22,832 nt of DNA, from IMG/VR virus record IMGVR_UViG_3300006874_003427, positions 1 through 22,832 of that record; one strand, written 5' to 3'. The position numbers and the translations under genes are program-made. This stretch comes from a virus. Below are positions 1 to 20,443 of the stretch, piece by piece. Every line of letters starts with the position of its first letter. Positions within the stretch are counted from its first letter, which is position 1. Below the pieces are notes generated by a model that made no database searches, was not told the DNA's origin, and saw only the letters and a program-made list of their open reading frames with translations.

Positions 1-1854
1 AGCCTACAACAATGGGGACAATGGCCATGGCCGAGACAGAACTTTGCTCAACTGATAAGCGATTTGAGAACACAGAATGGGGGCATTATAGGGCTGAATA
101 TTATGTTTCCGGAACCGGACAGGTTTGGAGGCGACCCGATTTTATCGAGTTGGATAAACGAGAATGGAGTCGTTTTAAGCCAGACTCCCTCAGCCAGAGG
201 GATAAGGAGTTCAGGCCCGCACATTGGGACGGCCACAATAGGTCCTTCGAACCCGACAGACTTCTTGCTAAGTTGGCCAAATCTCGTCGTAAATATTTCA
301 GAACTCGAACAGTCGGCTGACGGTATTGGTGTTATAGCATCAGCACCACAACCAGACAATCAAACCAGAACATATCCGTTAGCAATTGGTGTAGAGGGTA
401 AAATATATCCTTCGTTTGCTATTGAGATGTTGAGAGCATATACACAGAAGCCAAGTTATATGTTAAAGACATCAGAAATAGGTGTACAAGAATTTGCAGT
501 ACCACCTTTTGAACCTATTGTTACACAACCAGACGGAACAGCCTATATTCGTTTCAACAACACTTTTGAAGAATACGAATATACAGATGCGAGTGAACTG
601 CCTGACTTAGGTGGAAAGTTCGTTATAGTGGGTGTGAGTGCAGAAGGTGTTGCCAACCCGGTGCCCACTCCGAGAGGCAACATACTCCCACAGCATATAC
701 AAGCACACATGCTACAAAATTTTATTGATGGCAGTAACATTACCAGATCTGAATTATCGTCGCTTATAGAGCTTCTGTGTGCGTTGTGTGCTATGATTTT
801 AATAGCAATGTCAGTGTATAAAGCACCAATTTGGTTTAGTGGCATATCTTCCTTGGGTATTTTAGCAGGAATTGGCTATTACAGTACCTACTCTTATACA
901 GCAAATTTAATGTTGTTTGACGCAACATTTCCTGTGTTAGCAGGCTTTTTGATTTTCACACAGGCAAGTTTCAATAACTTTTGGATACAGTTTAAGTTAC
1001 GTGAACAAATCAAAAAACAATTTGAACATTACCTTGCTCCTGCAATGGTTAAAAAATTACAAAAGAATCCAGAACTGCTACAGTTAGGTGGCGAAACAAA
1101 AACAATGACATATTTGTTTTCAGACATACGTGGCTTTACACCTATCTCAGAACAGTTCAAAACAGACCCACAAGGATTAGGCAAACTGATCAACAAATAC
1201 ATGACACCCATGACAGACTTAGTGTTAGCAAACAATGGCACAGTAGACAAATACATTGGAGACGCTCTCATGGCAATATGGGGAGCACCACTCGACATAG
1301 AAGACCATGCTCAACAAGCCGTGGATACAGCAAGGGCTATGGAACCAGCATTGGCAAAATTAAATAAGGAATTACGTGATGAAGGTCTTATGGAACTTAG
1401 TATTGGAATTGGTCTCAACACCGGTGACGCAGTGGTGGGAAATATGGGTTCGGATCAGAGATTTGATTATAGTGTATTGGGGGATTCCGTTAACCTCGCC
1501 GCAAGATTAGAAGCTCAAACAAAAGAATACGGTGTGTTCTTTATGTTTACAGAGCACACCCTCAAACAAATAGAACGTGTTGAAGGCACAGTAATGTTGG
1601 ACAAGATTGCTGTAAAAGGCCAATCAGAACCAGTCAAAATTTATACTATTTTAGATAATCACAAGTACGCAAGAACAATTGAACGCATGGTTGATTATTA
1701 TCAAGACAGACTGTGGAGTGATTGTGCCCACCAAATTAAAATTATGAAAGACCATGGCTGGAATAACACACTGGCTGATTTATATGCAGAAAGGATCTCA
1801 CGCCCAATGCCACAAGGTGATTGGGATGGTGTTGACAGAAAAACTTCTAAGTAA
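1..1854 (+). CDS. CHASE2-domain class III adenylate/guanylate cyclase (5' truncated)
   Basis: The reading frame is open from base 1, so the true start lies upstream; 617 residues are visible (numbered from base 1). Residues 1-235 look like a CHASE2 extracytoplasmic sensor domain, opening with the WPWPR...FAQLI signature and an EPDRFGGDP stretch. Three hydrophobic segments follow at about 255-271, 276-297 and 300-323, then a linker ending in LQLGGETKTM. The class III cyclase domain starts near 367. Metal-binding Asp375 lies in FSDIRGFT and Asp421 in DKYIGD; Lys417 is the candidate purine-selecting Lys. Asn498 and Arg502 in VNLAARLE match the transition-state Asn/Arg. All catalytic positions look intact, so an active enzyme making cAMP (less likely cGMP) at the inner membrane is expected. 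A Ser sits where the second purine-selecting residue (Asp/Thr) is usual. The gene converges on, and overlaps by 8 bp, the phage 69-aa gene. Its first 360 bases are richer in G+C (about 49%) than the rest. The domain call is firm; the role in infection is unknown. Confidence 0.9.
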   Translation, partial: SLQQWGQWPWPRQNFAQLISDLRTQNGGIIGLNIMFPEPDRFGGDPILSSWINENGVVLSQTPSARGIRSSGPHIGTATIGPSNPTDFLLSWPNLVVNISELEQSADGIGVIASAPQPDNQTRTYPLAIGVEGKIYPSFAIEMLRAYTQKPSYMLKTSEIGVQEFAVPPFEPIVTQPDGTAYIRFNNTFEEYEYTDASELPDLGGKFVIVGVSAEGVANPVPTPRGNILPQHIQAHMLQNFIDGSNITRSELSSLIELLCALCAMILIAMSVYKAPIWFSGISSLGILAGIGYYSTYSYTANLMLFDATFPVLAGFLIFTQASFNNFWIQFKLREQIKKQFEHYLAPAMVKKLQKNPELLQLGGETKTMTYLFSDIRGFTPISEQFKTDPQGLGKLINKYMTPMTDLVLANNGTVDKYIGDALMAIWGAPLDIEDHAQQAVDTARAMEPALAKLNKELRDEGLMELSIGIGLNTGDAVVGNMGSDQRFDYSVLGDSVNLAARLEAQTKEYGVFFMFTEHTLKQIERVEGTVMLDKIAVKGQSEPVKIYTILDNHKYARTIERMVDYYQDRLWSDCAHQIKIMKDHGWNNTLADLYAERISRPMPQGDWDGVDRKTSK

Positions 1855-2056
1855 AAAATTTCTTAGCAAGATTAGGAATTTCGTTGTTTTGTATCATTTT
1901 AATAATGGTTTCGGTTATATTAATTTCTTGACGAACCATAGACATTCTAAACAAAAGTTTTTTTAATTCTTGTTCATAGAATTCTAATTCCTGCTCTTTT
2001 TGAAGTTTTTCATCTATCAGGTCTGCAATCTGTACAATCTTTTTACTATCCTGCAT
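1847..2056 (-). CDS. Small coiled-coil protein of unknown function (69 aa)
   Basis: I do not recognise this protein. It is 69 residues, strongly charged, and probably helical or coiled coil over residues 10-55 (heptad-like Leu/Ile with many Glu, Lys and Gln). The ATG lies exactly 5 nt after a perfect TATAAATA late-promoter box (2069 down to 2062), with no room for a Shine-Dalgarno site, so the mRNA would be leaderless. The 3' end overlaps the convergent cyclase gene by 8 bp. It is the last gene of the minus-strand block but has its own promoter, which supports a real late gene. Confidence 0.65.
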   Translation of the reverse strand: MQDSKKIVQIADLIDEKLQKEQELEFYEQELKKLLFRMSMVRQEINITETIIKMIQNNEIPNLAKKFFT

Positions 2057-2061
2057 AGTAA

Positions 2062-2069
2062 TATTTATA
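2062..2069 (-). promoter_or_regulatory. T4-type late promoter, TATAAATA
   Basis: A perfect TATAAATA on the minus strand, the consensus recognised by T4-type late sigma factor (gp55). Five bases (TTACT) separate it from the ATG of the 69-aa gene, so the predicted start of transcription is the A of the ATG. Confidence 0.75.
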
Positions 2070-2696
2070 CTATTCGTCAGGTTGCCAATCTTGCATGTTT
2101 AGGAAAAATTCGTAATAGTATCTTGCATCTTTTATATGTTGTCTAGCATGAAACAATTCTAGGGGGATTTCTTTTTCGTTAAGTTTTAATAGAGGCCAGT
2201 AGTATCTTTTTAATATTTTTTCAATACGTTTAATATCATGTTCTAGAGCATCTAGTATACTATTATTAAAAGATCGGTCTGTGATTAATTCTGCTAACCA
2301 CTGATGATTATAATTTTCTGGATTGTATCGGCGAACCATGTTTCTTGTTTCGTAATATAATGCTCGTACAGGATTAATATCTGTTCTATATTTTTTCATT
2401 ATATTAGGAAACACAAAATCTGAGTCTCTAGTTCTGGCATTTGTTAAACTGTGAGAATATTCTTTCTTCAAAGACTCTCTGAGCACAGATAAATCTTTAC
2501 TCATATTCTGTGAGTATTCAGAAATTAGTTTATCTGCTCTTTTTTGATAAATTTTAGTCATATGAGGTTTACATTTTTCAATGTCCTCTATAGACCAAAT
2601 GCCGTCTAATAGGTCGTGTGGTATTGTTTTTGTCTTTTCAAACTTGTCTAATTCTGCTTGTATACGAATACATATGAAATCAATTACACTTGACAC
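2070..2696 (-). CDS. Unknown protein (208 aa, GTG start)
   Basis: I do not recognise this protein. It is Lys/Arg/Tyr-rich and probably all helical; near the C-terminus are aromatic clusters (RRYNPENYNHQW, RYYWPLLKLNE, ARYYYEFF). No signal peptide or membrane segment is evident. Two in-frame GTG codons compete. The one at 2702 overlaps a GGAG sequence, while the one at 2696 sits 5 nt after that GGAG, so I choose 2696. It lies just downstream of the Nudix gene in the minus-strand block, with a weak late-type box (ATTAAATA, 2723 to 2716) overlapping the Nudix stop. Function cannot be inferred beyond being part of a tail/neck-linked operon. Confidence 0.7.
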   Translation of the reverse strand: MSSVIDFICIRIQAELDKFEKTKTIPHDLLDGIWSIEDIEKCKPHMTKIYQKRADKLISEYSQNMSKDLSVLRESLKKEYSHSLTNARTRDSDFVFPNIMKKYRTDINPVRALYYETRNMVRRYNPENYNHQWLAELITDRSFNNSILDALEHDIKRIEKILKRYYWPLLKLNEKEIPLELFHARQHIKDARYYYEFFLNMQDWQPDE

Positions 2697-2715
2697 TATC
2701 ACTCCAATTATACAT

Positions 2716-2723
2716 TATTTAAT
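2716..2723 (-). promoter_or_regulatory. Possible late promoter box, ATTAAATA
   Basis: ATTAAATA on the minus strand overlaps the end of the Nudix gene. It would start a transcript about 14 nt before the GTG of the 208-aa gene, leaving room for the GGAG site. It is a weaker match than the others, so this is tentative. Confidence 0.35.
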
Positions 2724-3144
2724 CAGTGTGTATGTCTAATATAGTGTGTAGTTTTTCTGTGCCGCCATTAGTGCCCAATGTTGTTTTGGCACCTTGATGT
2801 AGAGGCCTAGGCCACTGCCCTATATCTACCCACGCATAGCCTGCACTCTCACCGTTTAACTTAGGTGAAAATTCTTTTTCTATTACAGCAACAAAACTAT
2901 AATATATAAAATTTTTATCTCTGCTTTGATATATGTCTATTGGATTTAATTTTTCCAATTGAGGCATGAAACCAATTTCTTCACTTAATTCTCTTTTCAA
3001 ACATTCAAATGGAGTCTCATTTTTTTCTATGATACCTCCAAAGAAACCCCAGGTATGCTTAAAACGTTTATCACTATTTCTTAATTGTAGTAGGCATCTT
3101 CCTGTGTCTTTTGCTAAAAAAAGAACGCCAGCGGCTTTGATCAT
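2719..3144 (-). CDS. Nudix hydrolase (141 aa)
   Basis: This is a Nudix-superfamily pyrophosphohydrolase, which cleaves nucleoside diphosphates linked to another moiety. With the start at 3144, the Nudix box runs from residue 37 to 59 and fits GX5EX7REUXEEXGU exactly: Gly37, Glu43, Arg51-Glu52-Leu53, Glu55-Glu56, Gly58-Phe59. The metal-binding glutamates are all present. A longer frame reaches 3213, but the ATG at 3144 forms an ATGA overlap with the stop of the upstream gp15-like gene and has GGAG 9-10 nt upstream, so the shorter form is preferred and translational coupling is likely. The substrate is not visible from sequence; T4 also carries a Nudix enzyme (NudE), but specific equivalence is not claimed. 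Confidence 0.9.
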   Translation of the reverse strand: MIKAAGVLFLAKDTGRCLLQLRNSDKRFKHTWGFFGGIIEKNETPFECLKRELSEEIGFMPQLEKLNPIDIYQSRDKNFIYYSFVAVIEKEFSPKLNGESAGYAWVDIGQWPRPLHQGAKTTLGTNGGTEKLHTILDIHTD

Positions 3145-4490
3145 AATATTAGTCTCCAGTAACCACCATTGTATTCTCCTTCCCAACTGCTTATCCAACT
3201 GTTTGAAGTCCACTTAAATTGTGCGTTTGTATATGAGTTTGTTACATAAGCAACATCACTTACACTGCTACTGTCAAATACTATGTTCCATTGATTACCG
3301 TCGTACTCAATTATGTCGTTTTCGTTTGCTGTTATACCTCCCCACTCAGTAAATGACGCAAGAATGTTCTCAGTGAGTAGATATCGTTGTCCTAGTGCCT
3401 GTGGATCAAGTCCATTTGACGGCCTAGATGTTTGTGGATTAATAATTTTTGTAATGTCACTAAGTGTGTTTGATGGTAATGTGTCAACGTCTACGTTAAA
3501 AATTAAAGACGTTTCATCTAAAGGATTTGATACAACAGTTCCTATTACTAGTTGTGTTTGGTCGTCCATATCGCTAGATAAATTTAATTCTAACCTGCTT
3601 GTGGCTTTTAACTCCCCTTGCATTTCTATCAAGTCTGACCATTTAGTTGGTTGCCCTTGTGTAGTTACTAATTTCACACCACCATTTGCTACTTGTAGTC
3701 TATAATCATTTGGAGTTATAACAACTTGTGCAGTTTCGTCCCAATGCTCAAAGAAATCATAATATGAATCATCTGTAATACCCAAAGAATCTATGTCTTT
3801 GACACTATGAATATCTGCAATAATCTTTTGAATAATTTTTTGTCTTTGCACTTTTGCTGGCGGCGAAATCCAAATTGGAACGTCAAACGTTAAGGTTGAA
3901 ATATCAATTTGTTCGTCTACACCTGCAGGTAAACTTTTGCTACTAAAATTTATATCTGTAAGTTCTACTTCAAATACATTACTCCAATCTAATGGATTAC
4001 TATTAGATTGTAACTGGATACTTGGGTTAAACAATACCATAATTTGTTCAAGTAATTGTAATTTGGTATCAGTGTTAGTAGTCCATATATCTACCTGAAT
4101 AGTTAAATTGTATGGAACAGGCATGTATCTTTTTGTTGTGTACAAATTTCCTTGCTCACTTGTATACACATTATTTTCTCTGTCCCATTCTCTTTCAGCA
4201 ACTTGTTGTGTATCCATTAGATATGGGTCTTGTGTTCTTTCTCTTGCTATACCCAAACTGCCTATGCTTACGGTTATCATAGGAGCATTGTTAATTGTGT
4301 TTTCTGAATTGTTACGCAATATGTGTGCAACCATTCTGCTGACATCGCCATAACGTGCAGGTACACGATTATAGTTTACACCTTTTTCAGTGTTTTCTCT
4401 AACCTTAAAATTTGAGAAGATCCTGACAAGTTGGATCAGATAACGTTTTATCTGTTCGTCATACCAATAATCTAAATTTTTACCTGCCAT
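3141..4490 (-). CDS. 15: Tail sheath stabilizer/completion protein, gp15-like
   Basis: This resembles T4 gp15, which caps the tail tube and sheath at the head end and binds the neck. The N-terminal 230 residues show the family layout: RRY-type opening (DEQIKRYLIQLVRIFSNFKV), a conserved VPARYGD segment, PMITVSIG, the MPVPYNLTIQVDIWTTNTD strand, QIMVLFNPSIQLQ, and a FDVPIWISPP end. At 449 residues it is much longer than T4 gp15 (about 270). The extra C-terminus contains Trp/Tyr/Asn-rich stretches such as YDGNQWNIVFDSS and NSWISSWEGEYNGGYWRL. The ATG has AGGAAAGA just upstream and overlaps the 62-aa gene by 11 bp. It ends in an ATGA overlap with the Nudix gene. It sits with the gp14-like gene, as gp14-gp15 do in T4. 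Confidence 0.85.
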   Translation of the reverse strand: MAGKNLDYWYDEQIKRYLIQLVRIFSNFKVRENTEKGVNYNRVPARYGDVSRMVAHILRNNSENTINNAPMITVSIGSLGIARERTQDPYLMDTQQVAEREWDRENNVYTSEQGNLYTTKRYMPVPYNLTIQVDIWTTNTDTKLQLLEQIMVLFNPSIQLQSNSNPLDWSNVFEVELTDINFSSKSLPAGVDEQIDISTLTFDVPIWISPPAKVQRQKIIQKIIADIHSVKDIDSLGITDDSYYDFFEHWDETAQVVITPNDYRLQVANGGVKLVTTQGQPTKWSDLIEMQGELKATSRLELNLSSDMDDQTQLVIGTVVSNPLDETSLIFNVDVDTLPSNTLSDITKIINPQTSRPSNGLDPQALGQRYLLTENILASFTEWGGITANENDIIEYDGNQWNIVFDSSSVSDVAYVTNSYTNAQFKWTSNSWISSWEGEYNGGYWRLIL

Positions 4491-4668
4491 TCTTTCCTAT
4501 TCCTGTCTTTTCCATCCAGTCATGATATCTATAATAGTCACGTCTGTCAGAACACCAAAACCAACCTTTAGGGTTGCCTTGCTCTAAAACTTTGAACGCT
4601 CTTTCTGTTAGACGTTCTCTAGCCTCGACATCAGTCTCTCGGCTCTGTTCGTTACTTGTTTGTACCAT
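4480..4668 (-). CDS. Small charged protein of unknown function (62 aa)
   Basis: I do not recognise this protein. It is 62 residues, with a charged helical N-terminal half and an aromatic patch near the C-terminus (GWFWCSDRRDYYRYHDW). It overlaps the lysozyme 3' end by 61 bp in another frame and the gp15-like start by 11 bp. No later Met is available, so the long overlap appears genuine if the gene is translated. A purine-rich GAGGGCAGGGA lies upstream of the ATG. It could be a tail- or lysis-related accessory protein, but nothing in the sequence shows this. Confidence 0.5.
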   Translation of the reverse strand: MVQTSNEQSRETDVEARERLTERAFKVLEQGNPKGWFWCSDRRDYYRYHDWMEKTGIGKNGR

Positions 4669-5084
4669 CTGCTATCCCTGCCCTCTACTGCGGCTGTCTT
4701 CCAATCGCCTTCTAATATAGCGGCATGCATTTTTTTGAATTTACTTAAACGTGTCCTACCCATGTTAAACATCATATTAACCAGGATCTGCTGGACTTCG
4801 TCTGGTAAGTCGTTAAACTCCCCTCCTTCGTATAGAGCGTTACATTCTCCGATGGCAATGTCAAGGTCGTTCTCGAAACACTCCTTAACTCTTTGCTCCT
4901 CAACTGGAGTTCCTGTTGGTTGTCCATATTCCGGGTCACTTTCGAGGACAAGGTGACCAACTCCAAACGTGGGGTAACCGAGGTGATCGTTGTAGATTTC
5001 ATAAACTACTCCTTCATCAATTTTTAACTGTTCAAATACTGCTTCTCTGTTCAATTTTGTATCCTTAAATAATTTTCCAAACAT
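4608..5084 (-). CDS. T4-type lysozyme (muramidase, GH24)
   Basis: This is a T4 lysozyme-like enzyme that cleaves the MurNAc-GlcNAc bond of peptidoglycan. It is 158 residues, close to T4 lysozyme (164). The catalytic triad spacing is exact: Glu24 (KIDEG), Asp33 (YNDHLGYP) and Thr39 (TFGVGHL), matching Glu11-Asp20-Thr26. The RxRWY-type motif near the C-terminus (DSRWYKQVTNRAERL) is also conserved. There is no signal peptide. The ATG overlaps the gp14-like stop by one base (TAATG), and the gene lies inside a tail/neck operon. That placement leaves open whether it is the lysis endolysin, which would need a holin, or a tail-associated lysozyme like the gp5 domain. The enzymatic call is firm. Confidence 0.93.
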   Translation of the reverse strand: MFGKLFKDTKLNREAVFEQLKIDEGVVYEIYNDHLGYPTFGVGHLVLESDPEYGQPTGTPVEEQRVKECFENDLDIAIGECNALYEGGEFNDLPDEVQQILVNMMFNMGRTRLSKFKKMHAAILEGDWKTAAVEGRDSRWYKQVTNRAERLMSRLENV

Positions 5085-6145
5085 TAATTGTCCGTCCTTG
5101 GCTTAACAACTTTACTAAGATTAGTTTTCTCATTAGTTACTTCGCCGTCTGTTGCAACACTAAAGTTGTCATTGTTAATAAATGAAGTGAGAATTTTATT
5201 TGCCGCGGCCCATTGACTTTGGTTATCGTCTGATATTCTAATCCAACGAGTTCCCTTTTTCTTAAATAACCTATTTGGTTTGAAATCTGTTCTTAAGAAA
5301 TAATCGCCATCATTTACACCACTAGTAGGGAATTTTTCTCCACTTCCGACAACACTGATTCCATTCGGTGCGTCTCCACCTGCCCAAGTGCCAACACCTA
5401 CTGCTGGTTTGTCTTTGACACTTTCGTCATAATACAAATGTGCAGTTTGTCTATATTGAGGATCGTATGGTACATCATTTTCTGCTTGTTCTAAGATAGC
5501 ATCATTGACTTTAACTTCATTCTGATACGTACTAATTAAATTTCTTAGATCGCCTTCTTCTTCACCTGTACCAAGTATATCTCTGTATTCTTGACTGTCA
5601 CTTATTGGACCAAGTTTAACTCTCCACAAATGCGGCCACCAATTAGGATCAAAACCTTCAGCAGGTCTCGAACCTTCTTGTACAACATAAAAACGATTTA
5701 TTGCATCATCACTGCCTAATAATAAATCGTCACGCAAGTGAGGAAGTTCTAATACATCTCCAGGCATAAGTTTACGACCTATTGCTTCTACCATGCTTTC
5801 TATATGAAAGTTCATGAATAGTGTGTCGTTTGCTAAAAATGCTCCAAACTGAGTCAAGTCAAAGTCATTGTCTTGCATGTTATACTGTCCACGCAATTCA
5901 AAAATATCTTTGCTGTATTTTCTATCTCTGTTTTCTAAAAACAATAAATCTTGAATAAAAACTTCAGAGTTATTATTTGCACTGCTCGGTCTAGTAGGAT
6001 CACTACCGTCATTTTCAGCATGAACGCCTAAATATTTGTGTACATGGACACCAGTTCCACCCGCATAGATATGCTCGCCTACAATTCTATCTATAAATTT
6101 GTAGTCGTTTTGCTTTACTGGATTCCATAAACTTAGTCTTGGCAT
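5084..6145 (-). CDS. 14: Neck protein, gp14-like (head-tail joining)
   Basis: This is probably the counterpart of T4 gp14, part of the neck that joins the filled head to the tail. I base this on a family-like order: an EVFIQDLLFLENRDRKYSKD segment, then a DFDLTQFGAFLANDTLFMNF segment (compare FFSKFGL..nDei in gp14), then a MPGDVLELPHL...RFYVVQEGSR strand pair, and on its place beside gp15. The C-terminal part (residues 276-306) holds a Gly-Asp...Trp module like those inserted in gp18. An in-frame codon at 6175 gives 10 extra residues, but the ATG at 6145 lies exactly 5 nt after a GATAAATA late box, so I choose 6145. The mRNA would be leaderless. The structural role is likely; the exact gp number is less sure. 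Confidence 0.65.
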   Translation of the reverse strand: MPRLSLWNPVKQNDYKFIDRIVGEHIYAGGTGVHVHKYLGVHAENDGSDPTRPSSANNNSEVFIQDLLFLENRDRKYSKDIFELRGQYNMQDNDFDLTQFGAFLANDTLFMNFHIESMVEAIGRKLMPGDVLELPHLRDDLLLGSDDAINRFYVVQEGSRPAEGFDPNWWPHLWRVKLGPISDSQEYRDILGTGEEEGDLRNLISTYQNEVKVNDAILEQAENDVPYDPQYRQTAHLYYDESVKDKPAVGVGTWAGGDAPNGISVVGSGEKFPTSGVNDGDYFLRTDFKPNRLFKKKGTRWIRISDDNQSQWAAANKILTSFINNDNFSVATDGEVTNEKTNLSKVVKPRTDN

Positions 6146-6150
6146 ATTAC

Positions 6151-6158
6151 TATTTATC
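6151..6158 (-). promoter_or_regulatory. T4-type late promoter, GATAAATA
   Basis: GATAAATA on the minus strand, followed by GTAAT and the ATG of the gp14-like gene at 6145. It drives the leftward tail/neck block and lies 44 bp from the divergent late box at 6203. Confidence 0.75.
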
Positions 6159-6202
6159 AGAAAATTTTTAATCAAAAGAATGCTATTGAGTTTTAGTGTA
6201 AC

Positions 6203-6210
6203 TATAAATA
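6203..6210 (+). promoter_or_regulatory. T4-type late promoter, TATAAATA
   Basis: A perfect TATAAATA on the plus strand, followed by GTTAG and then an ATG at 6216 that opens a mini-ORF. It would transcribe the sugar epimerase gene rightward. Confidence 0.75.
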
Positions 6211-6215
6211 GTTAG

Positions 6216-6242
6216 ATGTTAATTACAGGACACAACACATGA
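6216..6242 (+). CDS. Possible leader mini-ORF (8 codons) coupled to the epimerase
   Basis: An ATG exactly 5 nt after a perfect late box opens an 8-codon frame, MLITGHNT, whose TGA overlaps the ATG of the epimerase as ATGA. It may be a leaderless coupling peptide or chance. An AGGA at 6227-6230 could also start the epimerase directly. Low confidence that the peptide itself matters. Confidence 0.25.
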   Translation: MLITGHNT

Positions 6243-7201
6243 AAATTTTTATCACTGGTGCAGATGGCTTTATCGGGTCGCACATGACAAAACGATTAGA
6301 AGCAGAACACGAAATATTTGCACTAGAACATGATCTCAGAGATCATTTAGCAGTTAAAAATCAACTCAAACGTGTTGATCCGGATTTAATTATTCATTTA
6401 GCCGCTAGAACAGAAGTAGAACAAAGTTTCTATGAGCAAATTACATTTAGCGAAATCAACTATGTAGGCACAGTAAACTTAATTGAAAGTTGCAGAGAAT
6501 TAAAAAATCTCAAAAATTTTGTGTTTGCAAGTACAATGGAAGTGTATGGCTGGCAACCTATTAGCGATCTTATTGCAGATGGCAATGAAGAGCCTGATGA
6601 TATTTGGGCATTCACAGAAGACACACAACCTAATCCAAATGCCCCCTATGCCGTTGCCAAATATGGTTGCGAAAAATATTTGGAATATGCAGGTAGGTGT
6701 TACAATCTGCCATACACAATTATTAGGCAAACAAATGCATACGGTAGAAAAGATAACAACTTCTTTGTTACTGAGCAAATTATCTATCAAATGTTAACCA
6801 ATCCAAATGAAATCAATTTAGGCTATGGAGAACCATATAGAAACTTTATATTCATTGATGATTTACTTGATGCATGGGAAACAGTGATACGTAATCCTGA
6901 TAAAGTTGCTGGTGAAATATTTTGCTTAGGTCCAGATAATGCAATCAAGATCAAAGACTATGTAAACATGATTGCTGACAAGATTGGATGGACTGGTACT
7001 ATATATTGGGATACCAAGCCTGTGAGACACGGTGAAATATATCTACTCAACAGTTCAAATCAAAAATTAACAAATGCAACTGGTTGGTCTCCTAAGGTAG
7101 AACTGTCAGATGGATTAGACAAAACTATTGAAATTTGGAAGAATATTCTTGCAAATGATCTGCCTTTTAACAACAATACAAAGTTTAGCAGGGGCAAATA
7201 A
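6239..7201 (+). CDS. NAD-dependent sugar epimerase/dehydratase (extended SDR)
   Basis: This is an extended short-chain dehydrogenase/reductase acting on nucleotide sugars in the cytoplasm, using NAD(P). The Rossmann glycine motif is TGADGFIG (residues 6-13), the active-site Ser98/Thr99 lie in FASTMEVYG, and the catalytic Tyr137-x3-Lys141 in YAVAK. The 320-residue length is normal for the family. The substrate (UDP-galactose, dTDP-glucose or GDP-mannose type) cannot be told from sequence. Its ATG has AGGA 8 nt upstream and overlaps the stop of an 8-codon leader ORF. It stands behind its own late promoter between two structural blocks, so it may be expressed late. A role in modifying virion or cell-surface sugars is inference. 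Confidence 0.88.
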   Translation: MKIFITGADGFIGSHMTKRLEAEHEIFALEHDLRDHLAVKNQLKRVDPDLIIHLAARTEVEQSFYEQITFSEINYVGTVNLIESCRELKNLKNFVFASTMEVYGWQPISDLIADGNEEPDDIWAFTEDTQPNPNAPYAVAKYGCEKYLEYAGRCYNLPYTIIRQTNAYGRKDNNFFVTEQIIYQMLTNPNEINLGYGEPYRNFIFIDDLLDAWETVIRNPDKVAGEIFCLGPDNAIKIKDYVNMIADKIGWTGTIYWDTKPVRHGEIYLLNSSNQKLTNATGWSPKVELSDGLDKTIEIWKNILANDLPFNNNTKFSRGK

Positions 7202-7223
7202 CCAAAAATTTGATATATAGTTG

Positions 7224-7251
7224 TTGACACAAAATAAAATACGTGTATAAT
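7224..7251 (+). promoter_or_regulatory. Sigma70-type promoter (TTGACA-16-TATAAT)
   Basis: A perfect -35 TTGACA (7224-7229) and a perfect -10 TATAAT (7246-7251) with a 16-bp spacer, about 30 nt before the ATG of the 379-aa gene. It is readable by unmodified host RNA polymerase, so this gene is probably expressed early or constitutively, unlike the late genes around it. Confidence 0.85.
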
Positions 7252-7280
7252 TAACTTTTACACATGTAGATACAACATAT

Positions 7281-8420
7281 ATGGCTAAACGACCTTCAAA
7301 GAAAAATATTTACTTGATGCCGGAGCCCAACTGGCAAGACATCAACAATGCTAAAACTGATGAGGAGAGACTTTCTCTTTATCGTAAGTTTGAATATTTT
7401 GTTCACTATGAGATTCCTGACAAGAAAACAGATGCTACTGTAGCAACCTGGCTTGACAAGGAAAGTGGTCTTGACAAAGACCTAATCAAAAAATTGAAGA
7501 AAGTTCCTGATGTTTGGTTTAGAAGTTTTGCCAAGCACACTTACATATGGTCGAAAACAGGATACATGTCTGAAGAGATGAAAGGCCACCTGCTTAAGAA
7601 GATTCCTGATCTTCAAAACAAAGCAGAAGAAATCATAGAAGAAAAACAAAAGAAGGCTGAGGACAAACCTAAAAAAGTAATCAGTATACAAGAACGTATG
7701 AAAGGCCAAGTAGAAGAACTTTGCGGTCAGTGGGAAGGATACATTGATCAAATCTTTTATGAAAGTTTTGATTTGAAAAAGTTTGACCCTTACAATGAGA
7801 TGAGAGCATTCAATGGTGGCATCATTAAGCCTAACCATGCTAAAATTATCAAAGAAGATTTTGCACATCAATATGAAGAAGCAACTGAGTTACTAGAATG
7901 GAAAAATGAAGATATCAAAGAAGGGTACAGTTATACAGACGCAAAGTTGCGTAAATTGTATCACGGTTTCTTAGAAAAAATTAACTCAGCATGTGATACA
8001 TTTATTGAAACAGGCAAAGCAAAACGCAAGCCACGTAAACCTAAAGCAGTCAGCAGAGAAAAACTAGTAAGCAAGGTCAAGTATAAAGCCAACGAACCTA
8101 CTTTGGGACTTGCTAGTATTAATCCAGTTGAGATTATAGATGCTACTGAGATTTGGGTGTTCAATACTAAAAATAGAAAGATTGGCATTTACAAAGTAGG
8201 TGGGTTGCACATGGGTCTTAGTGTAAAAGGCACTACCATACATCAATTTGATGAAGCCAAAAGTTTACAAAAAACTTTGCGTAAGCCAGCAGAACAACTA
8301 AAACTGTTTAAGGGTAACGCAAAAACAAAATATCAAAAAGCATTTGATGATATCAAAACAACAGACACTAGATTAAATGGTAGACTCAATGAGCATATTA
8401 TCATTCTCAAGGCTTTTTAG
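7281..8420 (+). CDS. Lys-rich protein of unknown function (379 aa), early-type promoter
   Basis: I do not recognise a named family, although the C-terminal segment (LSVKGTTIHQFDEAKSLQ, then KTLRKPAEQLKLF) recalls a conserved hypothetical protein of marine T4-like phages. It is very Lys-rich. Residues 113-150 look like a coiled coil (KAEEIIEEKQKKAED...), and a basic linker around 247-260 (KAKRKPRKPKAVSREK) separates a helical N-terminal part from a probably beta-rich C-terminal domain (EIWVFNTKNRKIGIYKV). The basic character would suit nucleic-acid binding, but that is inference. It is transcribed from its own sigma70-type promoter and has only a weak ribosome site. The stop codon lies inside a small hairpin (8409-8424). 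Confidence 0.85.
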   Translation: MAKRPSKKNIYLMPEPNWQDINNAKTDEERLSLYRKFEYFVHYEIPDKKTDATVATWLDKESGLDKDLIKKLKKVPDVWFRSFAKHTYIWSKTGYMSEEMKGHLLKKIPDLQNKAEEIIEEKQKKAEDKPKKVISIQERMKGQVEELCGQWEGYIDQIFYESFDLKKFDPYNEMRAFNGGIIKPNHAKIIKEDFAHQYEEATELLEWKNEDIKEGYSYTDAKLRKLYHGFLEKINSACDTFIETGKAKRKPRKPKAVSREKLVSKVKYKANEPTLGLASINPVEIIDATEIWVFNTKNRKIGIYKVGGLHMGLSVKGTTIHQFDEAKSLQKTLRKPAEQLKLFKGNAKTKYQKAFDDIKTTDTRLNGRLNEHIIILKAF

Positions 8421-8431
8421 CCTTAAAAAGT

Positions 8432-8439
8432 GATAAATA
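8432..8439 (+). promoter_or_regulatory. T4-type late promoter, GATAAATA
   Basis: GATAAATA followed by GTGTT and then the ATG of the gp13-like gene at 8445. This 5-nt spacing decides the gp13 start. Confidence 0.75.
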
Positions 8440-8444
8440 GTGTT

Positions 8445-9206
8445 ATGCCAAAAGATCAAATAGGATATAATAATAGAGACGATTTAATTTCAGAAATTAG
8501 ATTACGTCTTGCAGACGGTATAGTTGACGTTGAACTTGACCGAGAACATTATGACGTTGCTGTTGATAAAGCAATAGCACGTTATAGACAGCTCAGTTCG
8601 GGCAGTGTTGAAGAAAGTGTTATGTTTTTACAAACACAAATAGGCGTACAAGACTACACTTTACCAAATGAAGTACAAGAAGTTAGACGTCTTTACCGAA
8701 GAGGCGTTGGTAGCAGTTCTGGTTCTGGTGTAAACTTTGATCCTTTTGATGTGGCATTCAATAACATGTATCTGTTAAATGCAGGCCAAATAGGCGGACT
8801 TGCAACATTTGATGCATTCTCACAATATAAAGAAACCATTGGTAGAATATTTGGCAGTGAATACAACTTCTTATGGAATAGAAACACAAAAATACTTAAA
8901 ATTTTACGTAATGTTTCTACAGACGAAGAAATTGCAGTAGGTGTTTATAATTTTATTCCAGAAGATATTCTCTTAGGTGATGTGTATGCTAGTAACTGGC
9001 TAGGTTCTTATGCACTTGCTCAATCTAAAATGATTTTAGGTGAAGCTCGTAGTAAGTATGCTGGCGGACTTCCTGGAGCAGGCGGTGCTATTCAGTTAAA
9101 CGGTGAAACATTAAAGACAGAAGGTGCAACTGAAATTGAAGCACTACTTCAAAGTGTACATAATATGGAAGAAGGTAATAGTCCTTTAGGATTTGTAATA
9201 GGTTAA
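8445..9206 (+). CDS. 13: Neck protein, gp13-like (head-tail connector)
   Basis: This resembles the marine-phage form of T4 gp13, which with gp14 closes the packaged head and accepts the tail. Recognisable parts are the helical opening (DDLISEIRLRLADGIVDVEL), the AVDKAIARYRQ helix, the DYTLP strand, and the conserved C-terminal block WLGSYALAQSKMILGEARSK followed by a Gly-Pro-rich loop and LNGETLKTEG. A GTG in frame at 8430 lies within and before the late box. The ATG at 8445, 5 nt after GATAAATA, is the better start (253 residues). The dNMP kinase follows after 5 bp, so they are co-transcribed. No Shine-Dalgarno site precedes the ATG. Confidence 0.82.
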   Translation: MPKDQIGYNNRDDLISEIRLRLADGIVDVELDREHYDVAVDKAIARYRQLSSGSVEESVMFLQTQIGVQDYTLPNEVQEVRRLYRRGVGSSSGSGVNFDPFDVAFNNMYLLNAGQIGGLATFDAFSQYKETIGRIFGSEYNFLWNRNTKILKILRNVSTDEEIAVGVYNFIPEDILLGDVYASNWLGSYALAQSKMILGEARSKYAGGLPGAGGAIQLNGETLKTEGATEIEALLQSVHNMEEGNSPLGFVIG

Positions 9207-9211
9207 AATTT

Positions 9212-9871
9212 ATGATTATCGGTATTGTTGGTTTTATAGGCTCCGGTAAAGACACAGTCGCACAAGAATTTGTTAAAAGAGGTTGTATACAAGACAGTTT
9301 TGCGGCACCATTAAAAGATTTATGTGCAAGTGTTTTTGGTTGGCCTAGACATTTAGTTGAAGGCGACACAGTAGAGAGCAGAGACTTCAGAGAAACTCCG
9401 GATTTGTATTGGAGTAAAAGATTAGGCGTGCCTAATTTTACACCACGTTTAGCATTACAATTAATGGGCACAGAAGTAATGCGTAATCACTTTCATCAAG
9501 ATATTTGGTTAAGCAGTTTAGAATATAGAGTATTGCAACTGACAAAAAATGCACCATGTGTTGTTGTTAGCGACGCAAGATTCACAAATGAACTAGATTT
9601 GATCAAGCAAATGGGTGGTAAAATTATTTGGGTACAACGTGGAGAATTGCCTGAATGGTTTGAAGTAGCAAAAACTGCATCAACAAATGCAGTGTCACGT
9701 AAAATAATGGAAACAAGATACAAGGACGTTCATGAGAGTGAATGGAATTGGGCAGGATATCCAGTTGATTTTATAATCAAAAATGACGGTACACTAGAAG
9801 ACCTATACAAGCAAGTTGATAGTATACGAAATTGGGAAACAGGCGAATTTACTCATCTTAAATCTATTTAA
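9212..9871 (+). CDS. 1: Deoxynucleoside monophosphate kinase, gp1-like
   Basis: This is a P-loop dNMP kinase resembling T4 gp1, which phosphorylates dNMPs to dNDPs for phage DNA synthesis in the cytoplasm. The P-loop GFIGSGKDT is at residues 7-15. Family-like segments follow: FAAPLKDLCASVFGW, a LQLMGTEVMRNHFHQDIW block, VVVSDARFTNELD (the strand-turn with Asp-Arg) and a C-terminal DFIIKNDGTLEDL. The length of 219 residues is slightly below T4 gp1 (241). It starts 5 bp after gp13 with no clear ribosome site, so it probably depends on read-through from gp13. A 10-bp tandem repeat begins at its stop codon. Confidence 0.9.
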   Translation: MIIGIVGFIGSGKDTVAQEFVKRGCIQDSFAAPLKDLCASVFGWPRHLVEGDTVESRDFRETPDLYWSKRLGVPNFTPRLALQLMGTEVMRNHFHQDIWLSSLEYRVLQLTKNAPCVVVSDARFTNELDLIKQMGGKIIWVQRGELPEWFEVAKTASTNAVSRKIMETRYKDVHESEWNWAGYPVDFIIKNDGTLEDLYKQVDSIRNWETGEFTHLKSI

Positions 9872-9894
9872 TACCACTTAATACCACCTAATAC
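9869..9894 (+). repeat. Tandem 10-bp repeat, TAATACCAC(T/C), 2.6 copies
   Basis: TAATACCACT, TAATACCACC and a partial TAATAC lie head to tail, starting at the kinase stop codon and ending about 32 bp before the gp18 late box. The function is unknown; it could be a protein-binding site or replication slippage. Confidence 0.8.
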
Positions 9895-9925
9895 TTTTCA
9901 AAACGCCATAATATTTGCTATTTTT

Positions 9926-9933
9926 CATAAATA
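9926..9933 (+). promoter_or_regulatory. T4-type late promoter, CATAAATA
   Basis: CATAAATA followed by GTAGT. The predicted start is at 9939, giving a 30-nt leader with GGGAG (9958-9962) placed 6 nt before the gp18 ATG. Here the late promoter yields a normal leader. Confidence 0.75.
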
Positions 9934-9968
9934 GTAGTAACCATTTAACATTAAATTGGGAGAATATT

Positions 9969-12776
9969 ATGGCAGAATTAGTATCACCAGGCGTTAGTAT
10001 TACACTCAGCGATGAGAGTTTTTACGCATCTGCTGGAACAGGCACTGTACCTTTGATTGTTGTTGCAACAGCCAAAGACAAAGCATCACCAGCAGGAGGC
10101 ATTGCTCCTTTTACAACAGCAACGCACGAAGGCAAAGTAAAACTTATCACAAGTCAAAGAGAGTTACTTTCTAACTATGGTAATCCAACTTTCAAAACTT
10201 TAGGGGGTACTCCTCTACACGGCGACGAGCGTAACGAATACGGCTTGATGGCCGCATACAGTTTCTTAGGCATCGCAAATAGAGCATACGTTCTAAGAGC
10301 AGATGTTGATTTAGACGAATTAAATCCAAGTGCCGCGGCACCAACTGCAAAACCTTCAAACGGTTCATACTGGTTAGATTCAGATGACACAGTTTGGGGT
10401 CTTAAAAGATGGAGTGGTAGTGCATGGGTTAAACAATCAGTGTTAATTCCAGGTGCAAACGATGTTTCAAGTGGCGTACCATTAAGCTCATTTGGTCAGA
10501 ACGGTCAATATGCAGTTGTTTACGTTACTTCAACTGGTTCAACACAATCTATTATTAAATTATACCAAAAGATTTCAAGTGCATGGTTATTAATTGATAA
10601 CAACGGTACATTTAATAGTTCACATGATTTCCAAGTAGGTCCTCACACAGCAATACCTGCTACTCAAAGTGGTGGCGGAGCATTGTCAACAGGTGACTTA
10701 TTCCTACAAATATCAAGGCCAAACAACGGTACAGATATCATTCTTAAGAGATATAATGCATCTACAGGACAATTTGTTCAAGAATCTGTTGTTGGAAAAG
10801 TAAATTCATATGAAGCATATGGTGCTTATCCTAATGTAAAAGCAGGTGATATTTGGATTGACTATGACAGTAGTAAAGCAGAAATTGCAATTAAGAGACA
10901 CAACGGTGCAACATCATTAGTTGCTGACTCAACAAGCTCATTAGCAGGAACAACATGGGCAAATGCAATTCATGTAAGCGGTTCTACAGCATTTGAAATT
11001 ATTGTTAACGACAACGACGTTGTTAATGGTTCAGTTAACGGTGTTATTCCTGTTACTTTGTATGACAAAGACAGCGACAATGACGGTAACTTAACACTTG
11101 ACGATGTTATTACTGCTATACAAGATGCTGTTGGTGTTGCAGTTCCATCACAAACAGGTTCAGATTTAGTATCAGTTGCTAACGTTTCAGGACGTATTGC
11201 AATTACAGTAGCAGGCGGTAAGGATGTTAGAATTAAAAACGGTTCATTAGGTAGTGGATTTGATCCAACATCAGAACTTAACTTTAATTCCAGTTATAGT
11301 AATTGGGAATCTCCATCATTTACAGCAAGTGCAAATGAAATTACTGGCAGTTTAGCAGATGGTACTTTATGGTACGATAGCTCAGTCAGCAATTCATCTA
11401 TTGATATTTTATATAACAATGCAGGTACTTGGGCAACTTATCCATATGATGTTAACATTGCGGCTTCAGAGCCAAGTGTTCAATCAGATGGCACAAGTTC
11501 ACTTGTAGATGGCGATTTATGGATTAGCAGTGCTGATTTAGAAAATTATCCAAAGATCTACAAGAGAAATAGTGGTAATTGGATTTTAGTTGACTCTACA
11601 GATCAAGACAGCGGCGACGGTATTTTGTTTGCTGACTTTAGAGTATCACCTTCTGCGGCATCACTAGATGCTGACGCACCACTTCCAAGTTTATATCCAT
11701 ACAATATATTAGGTTGGAATAAGCGATTCTCAGGTGGTAACGTTAAGAGATGGACAGTAAATCACAGTGCAGGTTCAGTTGCTATTGGTAGCAGATGGGT
11801 AGACTACAGTGGTAATAAAGATGATGGTTCACCTTACTTGTTAAGAAAGGCACAAAGAGAAGCAGTTGTTAAATCATTAACATCAGCAATTAATTCAAAT
11901 CAAGAAATCAGAAATGAATCTAACAGATTTAACTTAATTGCCGCTCCAGGTTATCCTGAGCTTATGGGACCAATGATTTCTCTAAGTGGAAATAGAAAAG
12001 AAACAGCATTTGTAATTGGCGATGCTCCTTTAAGACTTAAAGCAGACGCTACAAGTACAGCGGCATGGGCAACAAATGCAAACAATGCATCAAACGGTGA
12101 AGAAGGCTTAGCCATCAACAACGATTATGCGGCTGTTTACTATCCACATGGTAAAACAAGTGACTTAGCAGGTAACGATGTAGTTGTACCAGCATCACAT
12201 ATTGCATTAAGAACTATTGCGTTTAACGACCAGGTGGCATTCCCATGGTTTGCACCAGCAGGTTTCCAACGTGGTGTTGTTAGTAATGCAAGTGGCGTAG
12301 GTTACATTGATCCAGATACAGGTGAATTTACTTCTGTAAGTTTAAGTGAAGGTCAAAGAGATAGTTTATACATTAATAGAATCAACCCTATTGCACAATT
12401 CCCAGGCAGAGGCCTAGCAGTGTTTGGACAAAAAACACTTTCAGGAAATTCAAGTGCATTAGATAGAGTTAATGTAGCCAGATTGGTTGTATATCTCAGA
12501 GAAAGACTTGACGATATCGTTAAGCCATTCTTATTTGAACCAAACGATGAAATTACACGTCAGAATGCTAAAGTATTGGTTGATAGATTCTTAGGTAATC
12601 TAGTATCACAACGTGGTCTTTATGACTTTGTAACAGTTTGTGATAGCTCAAACAACACTCCAGCAAGGATTGACAGAAATGAACTTTACATTGATATTGC
12701 TGTGCAACCAGTAAAAGCAGTTGAGTTTATTTACATTCCGATTCGTGTACAAAACACATTGGGTCAAACCAACTAA
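9969..12776 (+). CDS. 18: Tail sheath protein, gp18-like, with inserted repeats
   Basis: This is the contractile sheath subunit. The N-terminus (ELVSPGVSITLSDESFYASA) and C-terminal third are typical of T4-like gp18: RFNLIAAPGYPELMGPMISL, an AAVYYPHGKTSDL strand, then FEPNDEITRQNAK, FLGNLVSQRGLYDFVTVCDS and the VKAVEFIYIPIRV end. At 935 residues it is far longer than T4 gp18 (659). The excess lies mainly between about 128 and 545 and holds about five Gly-Asp...Trp modules. The frame extends upstream to 9915, but the ATG at 9969 has GGGAG 6 nt before it and lies after the late promoter. It is transcribed alone, ending at the terminator at 12793. The insert would sit on the outside of the sheath (inference from T4, where gp18 insertions face outward). 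Confidence 0.95.
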   Translation: MAELVSPGVSITLSDESFYASAGTGTVPLIVVATAKDKASPAGGIAPFTTATHEGKVKLITSQRELLSNYGNPTFKTLGGTPLHGDERNEYGLMAAYSFLGIANRAYVLRADVDLDELNPSAAAPTAKPSNGSYWLDSDDTVWGLKRWSGSAWVKQSVLIPGANDVSSGVPLSSFGQNGQYAVVYVTSTGSTQSIIKLYQKISSAWLLIDNNGTFNSSHDFQVGPHTAIPATQSGGGALSTGDLFLQISRPNNGTDIILKRYNASTGQFVQESVVGKVNSYEAYGAYPNVKAGDIWIDYDSSKAEIAIKRHNGATSLVADSTSSLAGTTWANAIHVSGSTAFEIIVNDNDVVNGSVNGVIPVTLYDKDSDNDGNLTLDDVITAIQDAVGVAVPSQTGSDLVSVANVSGRIAITVAGGKDVRIKNGSLGSGFDPTSELNFNSSYSNWESPSFTASANEITGSLADGTLWYDSSVSNSSIDILYNNAGTWATYPYDVNIAASEPSVQSDGTSSLVDGDLWISSADLENYPKIYKRNSGNWILVDSTDQDSGDGILFADFRVSPSAASLDADAPLPSLYPYNILGWNKRFSGGNVKRWTVNHSAGSVAIGSRWVDYSGNKDDGSPYLLRKAQREAVVKSLTSAINSNQEIRNESNRFNLIAAPGYPELMGPMISLSGNRKETAFVIGDAPLRLKADATSTAAWATNANNASNGEEGLAINNDYAAVYYPHGKTSDLAGNDVVVPASHIALRTIAFNDQVAFPWFAPAGFQRGVVSNASGVGYIDPDTGEFTSVSLSEGQRDSLYINRINPIAQFPGRGLAVFGQKTLSGNSSALDRVNVARLVVYLRERLDDIVKPFLFEPNDEITRQNAKVLVDRFLGNLVSQRGLYDFVTVCDSSNNTPARIDRNELYIDIAVQPVKAVEFIYIPIRVQNTLGQTN
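10350..11605 (+). repeat. Five diverged Gly-Asp...Trp modules inside gp18
   Basis: Protein-level repeats at about residues 128-156, 239-275, 290-325, 462-492 and 512-545 of gp18. Each has a Gly-(Asp/Ser/Thr)-(Leu/Ile/Tyr)-(Trp/Phe) start and a charged/aromatic strand. Most end in a second Trp or Phe about 18-24 residues on (Trp135/Trp153, Trp468/Trp488, Trp518/Trp538). They are probably small beta modules. Confidence 0.6.
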
Positions 12777-12902: not shown

Positions 12903-13550
12903 ATGGCAGATGAAATTAACAGAATAGAAACCCGAAGCAAGTTCGGTGTACCTTTGAGTGGATCTACAGGTTCCGGTATTTTAATGCCGAAACTCAAGTA
13001 TCGCTTTAGAGTTGCAATGCTTGGTGGTTTTGGTGGCGAGCCAGAGTCTAGAATCTTTACGCAGAATGTGCAAAGTGTTACTAGACCAAAGATCACATAC
13101 GAAGAAGTAATCTTAGATAGTTACAACTCTAAGTCGTATGTACAAGGTAAGCATTCTTGGGAGCAAGTTACTGTCACATTAAGAGACGACATTTCAAATG
13201 GCGTCGCTAAGATAGTAGGTGCCCAAGTACAACGTCAGTTAAATCATTTCCAACAAACATCTCCAGCATCAGGTAACGACTATAAGTTTGATATGCAAAT
13301 TGAAATCTTAGATGGTGTTAATGCAGGTGCTAGTGAAGTTTGGTTCCTAGAAGGTTGTTTCTTAACAAACGTTGACTACAGTGACAGTGATTACAGTGCA
13401 AATGATCCAGTACAAATTATTTTACAGGTTCGTTACGATAATGCTGGACACTATCAAGGTAGTAATGACGTTAATGGATTAGTTACAGGACCACTAGGTG
13501 GAGCATTTAACCCGTCCGTTGACTTAAACGATCCAAGCCCATTATCATAA
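12903..13550 (+). CDS. 19: Tail tube protein, gp19-like
   Basis: This is the subunit of the inner tail tube through which DNA passes. The core matches the family: PKLKYRFRVAMLGGFGG, a TQNVQSVTRPKITYEEV strand, then WEQVTVTLRDDISNGV, a FDMQIEILDG strand, WFLEGCFLTNVDYSDSDYS and the VQIILQVRYDNA end. At 215 residues it is longer than T4 gp19 (163), with extra N- and C-terminal tails. A strong ribosome site (TAGGAG) and its own late promoter suit high expression. The tube-like 461-aa gene follows after 18 bp. Confidence 0.93.
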   Translation: MADEINRIETRSKFGVPLSGSTGSGILMPKLKYRFRVAMLGGFGGEPESRIFTQNVQSVTRPKITYEEVILDSYNSKSYVQGKHSWEQVTVTLRDDISNGVAKIVGAQVQRQLNHFQQTSPASGNDYKFDMQIEILDGVNAGASEVWFLEGCFLTNVDYSDSDYSANDPVQIILQVRYDNAGHYQGSNDVNGLVTGPLGGAFNPSVDLNDPSPLS

Positions 13551-18859: not shown

Positions 18860-20443
18860 ATGGCCGCTAAAGGAACAGCAGATACTTCCTTAGTAAAATC
18901 TGCACATAAAAAAATCAATTATACTCAAAAGCAATTACTTGAGTTTAAGAGTTGTTGTGACAATGATTCTGGTCCTCTGTATTTCATGAAAACATATATG
19001 AAAATACAACATCCTACTAAGGGTGGTATAGATTTTGACCCTTACGATTATCAGTTAGAGCTTATAGAAAACTACAATAATTACAGATACAGTATTAACA
19101 TGCTGGGCAGACAGATGGGTAAAACCACTGTAGCCGCAGGTTATTTGTTGTGGTATGCTATGTTTAAGCCTGACAGTACAATATTAGTAGCGGCTCATAA
19201 AGCGGCAGGTGCCAGTGAAATTATGCAACGTATACGTTATGCATACGAAAATGTTCCTGATTATATAAGAGCAGGGGTAGCAGAATACAACAAAGGCAGT
19301 ATCACGTTTGATAATGGTTCACGTATAGTTAGCAGTACAACAACCGAAACAACTGGACGTGGTATGTCCTTAACATTAATTTATTGTGATGAGTTTGCGT
19401 TTGTGCGTAATACCATTGCAAAAGAATTTTGGACCTCACTATCACCTACACTAGCAACAGGCGGTAAAGCCATTGTAACAAGTACACCAAACAATGATGA
19501 TGATCAATTTGCAACTATCTGGCGTGGTGCAAATAAAATGTTTGACGAACATGGTAATGAACAAGAAGTTGGTGTAAATGGTTTTAGGCCCTTTCTTGCA
19601 ACGTGGGACGAACACCCAGAGCGTGATGAAGCATGGGCGTTACAAGAAAGGTCAAGTATCGGCGAAGAACGTTTTAGGCGTGAACACGATTGCGAATTTG
19701 TCATCTATGATGAAACATTAGTATCACCACTTAAACTTATAGAATTGCACGGAGTAGATCCTTTAAGGCAGATGGGACAAGTTCGCTGGTATAAACATCC
19801 ACATCCTAATTGCACTTATGTAGTAAGTTTAGACCCTAGTGCCGGGACAGGCGGAGATTATAGTGCAATACAAGTTATAGAATTACCTACTATGACACAA
19901 GTTGCTGAGTGGCAACATAATAGAACACCCATTGAAGGACAAATGCGTACTATGATGGAAATTTTACAGTACCTCAAAGAGCTTCAAGTACAACAAATTT
20001 ACTGGAGTGTTGAGAACAACACTATAGGTGAAGCCGCACTTGTAGTAATTCGTGATACTGGCGAGGAGAGTTTTCCAGGAGATTTCCTACATGAACCTAA
20101 AAAGATACAAGGGCAAAAAGGTAGAAAAGGTTTTCATACAAGTCATAGAACTAAAATAGAGGCTTGCGTACAATTAAAAAGATTTGTAGAGCAAGATAAA
20201 GTAAAATTAAATAGTAAAGCATTAATCAGTGAACTTAAAAACTTTGTTGCCAAAGGAAATAGTTTTTGTGCTAAACCAGGAGAACACGATGACCTGGTTA
20301 TGGCATTCATATTAGGTGTCAGAATGATAGCATATATTTCAACCTTTGAAGACGAAATATATAATATTGTAAACAGTAACCTCACAAATGCAGAAATCAT
20401 GATACCCGAAGACGAGTATGATGAGCCCATGCCGTATCTCTAA
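18860..20443 (+). CDS. 17: Terminase large subunit, gp17-like
   Basis: This is the DNA-packaging motor ATPase and headful nuclease. The deviant Walker A is GRQMGKTT (residues 83-90, Lys88), matching the SRQLGKTT type of T4 gp17. Walker B is LIYCDEF (Asp177-Glu178), and a SSTTTETTGRGMS stretch precedes it. The C-terminal RNase H-like nuclease shows Asp325 (VSLDPSAGTGGDYSA), Glu385 (YWSVENN) and Asp477/Asp478 (EHDDLVMA). At 527 residues it is shorter than T4 gp17 (610). The ATG lies 5 nt after a CTAAATA late box, with no Shine-Dalgarno site. It is separated from its gp16 partner by three genes. Confidence 0.97.
   Translation: MAAKGTADTSLVKSAHKKINYTQKQLLEFKSCCDNDSGPLYFMKTYMKIQHPTKGGIDFDPYDYQLELIENYNNYRYSINMLGRQMGKTTVAAGYLLWYAMFKPDSTILVAAHKAAGASEIMQRIRYAYENVPDYIRAGVAEYNKGSITFDNGSRIVSSTTTETTGRGMSLTLIYCDEFAFVRNTIAKEFWTSLSPTLATGGKAIVTSTPNNDDDQFATIWRGANKMFDEHGNEQEVGVNGFRPFLATWDEHPERDEAWALQERSSIGEERFRREHDCEFVIYDETLVSPLKLIELHGVDPLRQMGQVRWYKHPHPNCTYVVSLDPSAGTGGDYSAIQVIELPTMTQVAEWQHNRTPIEGQMRTMMEILQYLKELQVQQIYWSVENNTIGEAALVVIRDTGEESFPGDFLHEPKKIQGQKGRKGFHTSHRTKIEACVQLKRFVEQDKVKLNSKALISELKNFVAKGNSFCAKPGEHDDLVMAFILGVRMIAYISTFEDEIYNIVNSNLTNAEIMIPEDEYDEPMPYL

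Follow-up and report, generated by a model that had tools for sequence, protein, structure and literature searches.

Phages that combine curli-type secretion genes with an adenylate cyclase have been described before. Wittmers et al. (2022; PMC9599517) describe pelagiphage podo- and myoviruses in which CsgF, CsgG, curlin repeats, FecR and adenylate cyclase are clustered, and PMC7029224 and PMC9004378 likewise report curli genes in phages of this kind. Annotated homologues of the cyclase occur in the Pelagibacter phage HTVC008M (I899_gp019) and the Methylophilales phage Melnitz (gene 104 of Melnitz-3), where the gene ends a CsgF-CsgG-curlin-FecR-curlin operon and convergent structural genes then follow. 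In bacteria, an outer-membrane beta-barrel feeds CHASE2 cyclases in Sinorhizobium (PMC13001267), and a FecR gene adjoins a CHASE2 histidine kinase in Burkholderia (PMC5192318).

The locus described here lies on a 22,832-nucleotide stretch of DNA from a marine bacteriophage (IMG/VR record IMGVR_UViG_3300006874_003427; hereafter the window), which opens within a gene for a CHASE2-class III nucleotidyl cyclase (1..1854, plus strand). Its domain order is that of the HTVC008M and Melnitz proteins, whereas its identity to them is 36-38% and its catalytic allele is W rather than their H and M. In PMC9599517, the gene set and order of the pelagiphage T8SS cluster are those of the window's relatives, but the phages covered there are pelagiphage podo- and myoviruses, while the window has a PA5oct-related backbone. 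The original prediction, made from the sequence alone, was aware of no cyclase of this form described in a T4-like phage. The annotated relatives in HTVC008M and Melnitz, together with the published cluster, overturn this novelty: the cyclase gene and its operon are already known. Four points are additions that we did not find in the literature examined: the phage lineage, the exchange of domains, the Asn-to-Ser allele and the lack of a receptor in SAR11. The accessible portion of PMC9599517 contains neither the CHASE2 name nor domain exchange, and a literature search reaching few subscription journals returned no publication on domain swapping in phage cyclases.

The cyclase and its catalytic site

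The window holds codons 60-676 and the stop codon of a 676-codon gene, whose 5' end is cut by the contig end; the open frame (1-1854) is far longer than expected by chance. The start is supplied by contig L004, in which an ATG at L004:1053 begins a protein of 676 aa starting MKWLYSGWAV, and the missing 59 N-terminal codons hold a fourth, N-terminal membrane helix. Profile searches with the window frame identified a CHASE2 periplasmic sensor domain at window residues 1-267 (1..801, plus strand; PF05226, E 7e-30, 104.8 bits) and a Guanylate_cyc domain at residues 366-550 (PF00211, E 1e-19, 71.3 bits against a cut-off of 21.9). An AlphaFold2 model of the cyclase (mean pLDDT 88.4, pTM 0.66) shows, in order, an N-terminal helix (7-23), CHASE2, three helices, the class III domain (423-612) and a helical tail. 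The three membrane/signalling helices, at full-length residues 312-333, 336-361 and 368-400 (757..1023, plus strand), are also visible in hydropathy, and the last of them extends towards the catalytic domain. Profile and model together thus give the layout of a CHASE2 receptor, with a periplasmic CHASE2 flanked by an N-terminal helix and further membrane helices. The CHASE2 domain, three membrane segments and class III domain had all been read correctly from the window in the original prediction.

The catalytic domain, of the W allele (full-length residues 423-612; 1090..1659, plus strand), is closest in structure to Spirulina CyaC (1wc1; VIA Z 26.4, 40% identity, rmsd 1.7 over 185) and P. aeruginosa CyaB. 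Because the structure search with the cyclase model was dominated by this domain, we make no fold claim for CHASE2. Both CyaC and P. aeruginosa CyaB have the catalytic fold in common with the window cyclase (Z about 26, 38-40% identity), but their sensor domains differ from its CHASE2.

The residue numbers given in the original prediction were exact: Asp375, Asp421, Asn498 and Arg502 correspond to D434, D480, N557 and R561 of the 676-aa protein in L004, and the W allele of the window has all four of these class III residues. Across the 224 phage cyclases compared, the two metal-binding Asp (1123..1125 and 1261..1263), the transition-state Arg (1504..1506) and the base-recognition Lys417 (K476; 1249..1251), all on the plus strand, show no variation (224/224). 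The transition-state Asn (1492..1494, plus strand) is Ser in every M-allele protein of the window's relatives, and these also have Asp at position 550 (91/91); that base-recognition position, Ser491 in the window (S550; 1471..1473, plus strand), is Thr or Ser within the W allele. In class III cyclases, K476 with Ser, Thr or Asp at 550 marks the adenylyl cyclase type. Since K476 is paired with S550 in the window cyclase, its residues suggest ATP as the substrate. In the cyclase family dN/dS is 0.05-0.07 for the catalytic domain and 0.10-0.20 for the sensor.

The phage and the curli operon of its relatives

Downstream, the cyclase meets a 69-aa minus-strand ORF (1847..2056) tail to tail, and the overlap between the two, already remarked on from the sequence, amounts to 8 bp. 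Beyond it lie convergent phage genes (2070..4490, minus strand) for an unknown protein, a Nudix protein and the gp15 tail sheath stabiliser, which are also found 3' of the cyclase in relatives; the cyclase has relatives on 80 IMG/VR contigs, with the same kind of convergent structural genes downstream. The Nudix protein (2719-3213), likewise downstream of the cyclase in relatives, matches the PADLOC candidate family PDC-S07 (3e-13). Contig L004, from another metagenome, covers window bases 1 to 4604 with zero mismatches, and contig L043, also from another metagenome, corresponds to ~11 to 11851 with 1 mismatch; compared base by base over 1847-1854, both span the junction. A contig from a third metagenome (L005) matches the window at 100%. 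When the view is extended upstream in relatives, as had been suggested, phage genes flank the cyclase on both sides. A chimeric contig or host fragment is ruled out by the independent contigs across the junction and by the 84/84 loci of sensor cluster 1 (the window's relatives, described below) that sit on a window-type backbone. The original view that the gene is not a decayed host fragment is upheld by the same contigs, by the intact catalytic site and by the low dN/dS of the catalytic domain.

As a lineage marker we used the terminase large subunit (18860..20443, plus strand), which is 58% identical to those of PA5oct-like Pseudomonas jumbo phages, 51% to that of Sinorhizobium phage Phosso and 34-35% to those of HTVC008M and Melnitz. 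The nearest named relatives of the tail tube protein (12903..13550, plus strand) are likewise PA5oct (47%) and Phosso (51%). An HTVC008M-type pelagimyophage (Kyanoviridae) is ruled out by the terminase identity of 34-35% and by the tail tube; these markers place the window phage outside the pelagimyophages, on a PA5oct-related backbone. The named jumbo phages in this comparison all lack the cyclase.

In relatives, the cyclase closes an operon with the order CsgF-CsgG-curlin-FecR-curlin-cyclase. CsgF, CsgG, FecR and cyclase stand in this order in 94/94 phage loci holding all four genes, and where 7 kb or more of sequence precedes the cyclase in a phage locus, FecR is present in 79/79 and CsgG in 78/79. 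The nearest backbone relatives of the window, L059 and L061, have the whole curli cluster; the window and the identical contig L004 end before reaching any curli-gene position, and there are no curli genes on the window contig.

In the window lineage, accessory genes often separate the cyclase from the curli genes, and on L004 a flavin reductase-like gene is directly upstream of the cyclase. Two contigs (L029, L030) carry an insert at this place with an epimerase match, further genes of which look sulfotransferase-like and glycosyltransferase-like by eye. A small predicted lipoprotein, judged by eye from the signal sequence, is encoded by 43 related ORFs 5' of the cyclase (e.g., L010:9353-9640), which in the window lineage often stand between it and the curlin genes; searches of PHROGs, NCBIfam and PADLOC gave no match for this protein. 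In HTVC008M, the second curlin-repeat protein (L003:8490-9812) also has a PA14 domain (2.7e-6), which is possibly a carbohydrate-binding part of an exported protein.

The closest bacterial homologues among those fetched are alphaproteobacterial CHASE2 cyclases. These have CHASE2, membrane helices, a class III domain and catalytic residues as in the window cyclase, but are about 35% identical to the phage proteins and have no curli genes nearby: CsgG or CsgF was found at none of 80 bacterial homologue loci. In 20 of 73 bacterial cyclase loci, a same-strand gene for a FecR-domain protein precedes the cyclase by 7-160 bp; in the other 53, none was detected directly upstream. The phage sensors form a single clade, separate from the 41 bacterial sequences kept in the tree; in the catalytic-domain tree, the split between phage and bacteria has a support of only 78. 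Because FecR-CHASE2 pairs occur in these bacteria and in Burkholderia, and curli genes are missing near the bacterial cyclases, the FecR-CHASE2 pairing likely predates the link to curli.

Mosaic cyclases

The 224 phage cyclases are mosaics, in which the sensor tracks the phage backbone and three catalytic alleles shift between lineages. The alleles, W, H and M, are 36-50% identical to one another and 83-87% identical within themselves, and the sensors fall into four clusters (29-36% identity between clusters); 8 of the 12 combinations of sensor cluster and catalytic allele were found. Sensor cluster 1, always on the window-type backbone, is joined to catalytic W in 52 loci, M in 29 and H in 3. 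The sensor tree requires 11 or more switches of catalytic type, against a minimum of 2. In the W/M hybrids the breakpoint falls at about residue 393, past the last membrane helix and ahead of the catalytic domain. L061 illustrates the pattern: compared with the window, its CHASE2 DNA is 85-97% identical and its catalytic DNA about 50%, and most of its genes beyond the cyclase show 85-94% identity to those of the window. Assembly chimeras are an unlikely source of the mosaics, since 29 W/M hybrids from many metagenomes break at this one place. These comparisons indicate that the catalytic half of the cyclase behaves as an independent cassette exchanged among phage lineages.

Unrelated marine T4-like phages may swap the catalytic half while keeping the envelope sensor, either in an arms race or to retune a cyclic-nucleotide signal whose reader lies outside the CRP family; we offer this as a tentative idea with a rather low chance of being right. 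The natural domain swaps provide ready pairs of one sensor with different catalytic domains for probing output.

Signal, readout and rival explanations

We lean, with moderate confidence, towards the membrane adenylyl cyclase serving as the sensing output of a curli-type secretion operon carried by the phage, coupled to FecR and curli and making cAMP. The phage would express CsgF, CsgG, curlin-repeat proteins and a periplasmic FecR-domain protein; CHASE2, between the first membrane helix and three more, would sense the state of the envelope or of curli export, probably together with FecR; and the helix that runs to the cytoplasmic class III domain would then switch on cAMP synthesis. The sequences themselves show the gene order in relatives, the domain order, the intact catalytic site, purifying selection, phage ownership and the FecR-CHASE2 cyclase pairs of alphaproteobacteria; we infer FecR or curli export as the signal, cAMP as the product and a role during infection. 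Counting against this reading are the accessory genes between curli genes and cyclase in part of the window lineage, the 53 bacterial loci where FecR was not detected directly upstream, and the scarcity of candidate cAMP receptors, with none found in the phage records searched and almost none in SAR11. The closest working analogy to this FecR-CHASE2 model is the beta-barrel-fed system of Sinorhizobium (PMC13001267), whose CyaD1, CyaD2 and CyaK are likened to the phage cyclase by published description, not by sequence.

Those Sinorhizobium cyclases act via Clr (PMC13001267), just as phage cAMP might drive the CRP/Clr regulon of a host, altering catabolite control or the cell surface or blocking superinfection, with the curli genes as mere neighbours of the cyclase. 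The presence of cNMP-binding proteins in 212 of 289 sampled alphaproteobacteria would suit such reprogramming, and the window lineage need not infect SAR11. However, the close FecR/curli linkage would be left without explanation, and in SAR11, which HTVC008M infects, class III cyclases are missing (0/78 genomes) and cNMP-binding domains occur in 5/78 genomes, all weak matches; we regard host reprogramming as unlikely. Because class III cyclases are missing and cNMP-binding domains nearly so, CRP-type catabolite control in particular is, on sequence grounds, an unlikely readout in SAR11. The host catabolite control put forward in the original prediction is thus unlikely for this one host group tested, though it could apply to the window phage if that infects a different host.

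The repeated catalytic swaps under a conserved sensor are also the pattern expected of an arms race over output, and PycC models match the catalytic domain at up to 3e-29, as they might if the cyclic nucleotide were a decoy or antagonist of a nucleotide-signalling defence or the cyclase were itself of Pycsar type. Yet PycC matches are expected from the common class III fold, K476 with Ser, Thr or Asp at 550 is of the adenylyl cyclase type, and a decoy needs no CHASE2 sensor. Among the tested proteins flanking the cyclase, moreover, no Pycsar effector (PycTIR or PycTM) was matched and no defence match was seen save that of the Nudix protein to a candidate family, and we judge interference with defence to be very unlikely. 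We give equally little credence to a selfish cassette, a FecR-curli-cyclase module that moves between phages and whose cAMP is of little benefit. Its occurrence in several phage lineages (also in PMC9599517) and the exchange of domains through recombination would fit, but the catalytic domain is under strong purifying selection and four of its catalytic residues never vary.

If the FecR/curli-coupled reading is correct, phages deliver a complete envelope-sensing second-messenger receptor, linked to a secretion operon, to hosts apparently without cAMP-reading machinery (SAR11 at least). A phage-encoded cAMP receptor of the PF00027 type was sought in six phage records, two of them complete (HTVC008M and Melnitz) and four large contigs, and no such cNMP-binding domain was found. 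Phages of some of the most abundant ocean bacteria would then call either for a cAMP reader yet to be recognised or for some unfamiliar use of what the cyclase makes. FecR would also be a testable partner for CHASE2, whose signals mostly remain unknown.

The SAR11 order was set by two genomes without a mismatch at any of the four SAR11 16S probe sites; the probe-matched stretches were confirmed to hold bacterial SSU rRNA, and the 78 genomes belong to that order. The sole cNMP-binding candidate there is a hit of 870 aa, just above the cut-off, in the five genomes. At one such locus (L320; G445:C6:56500-59900) the protein is at least 801 aa long; besides its weak cNMP-binding domain it has an extended C-terminal region that looks acyltransferase-like by eye.
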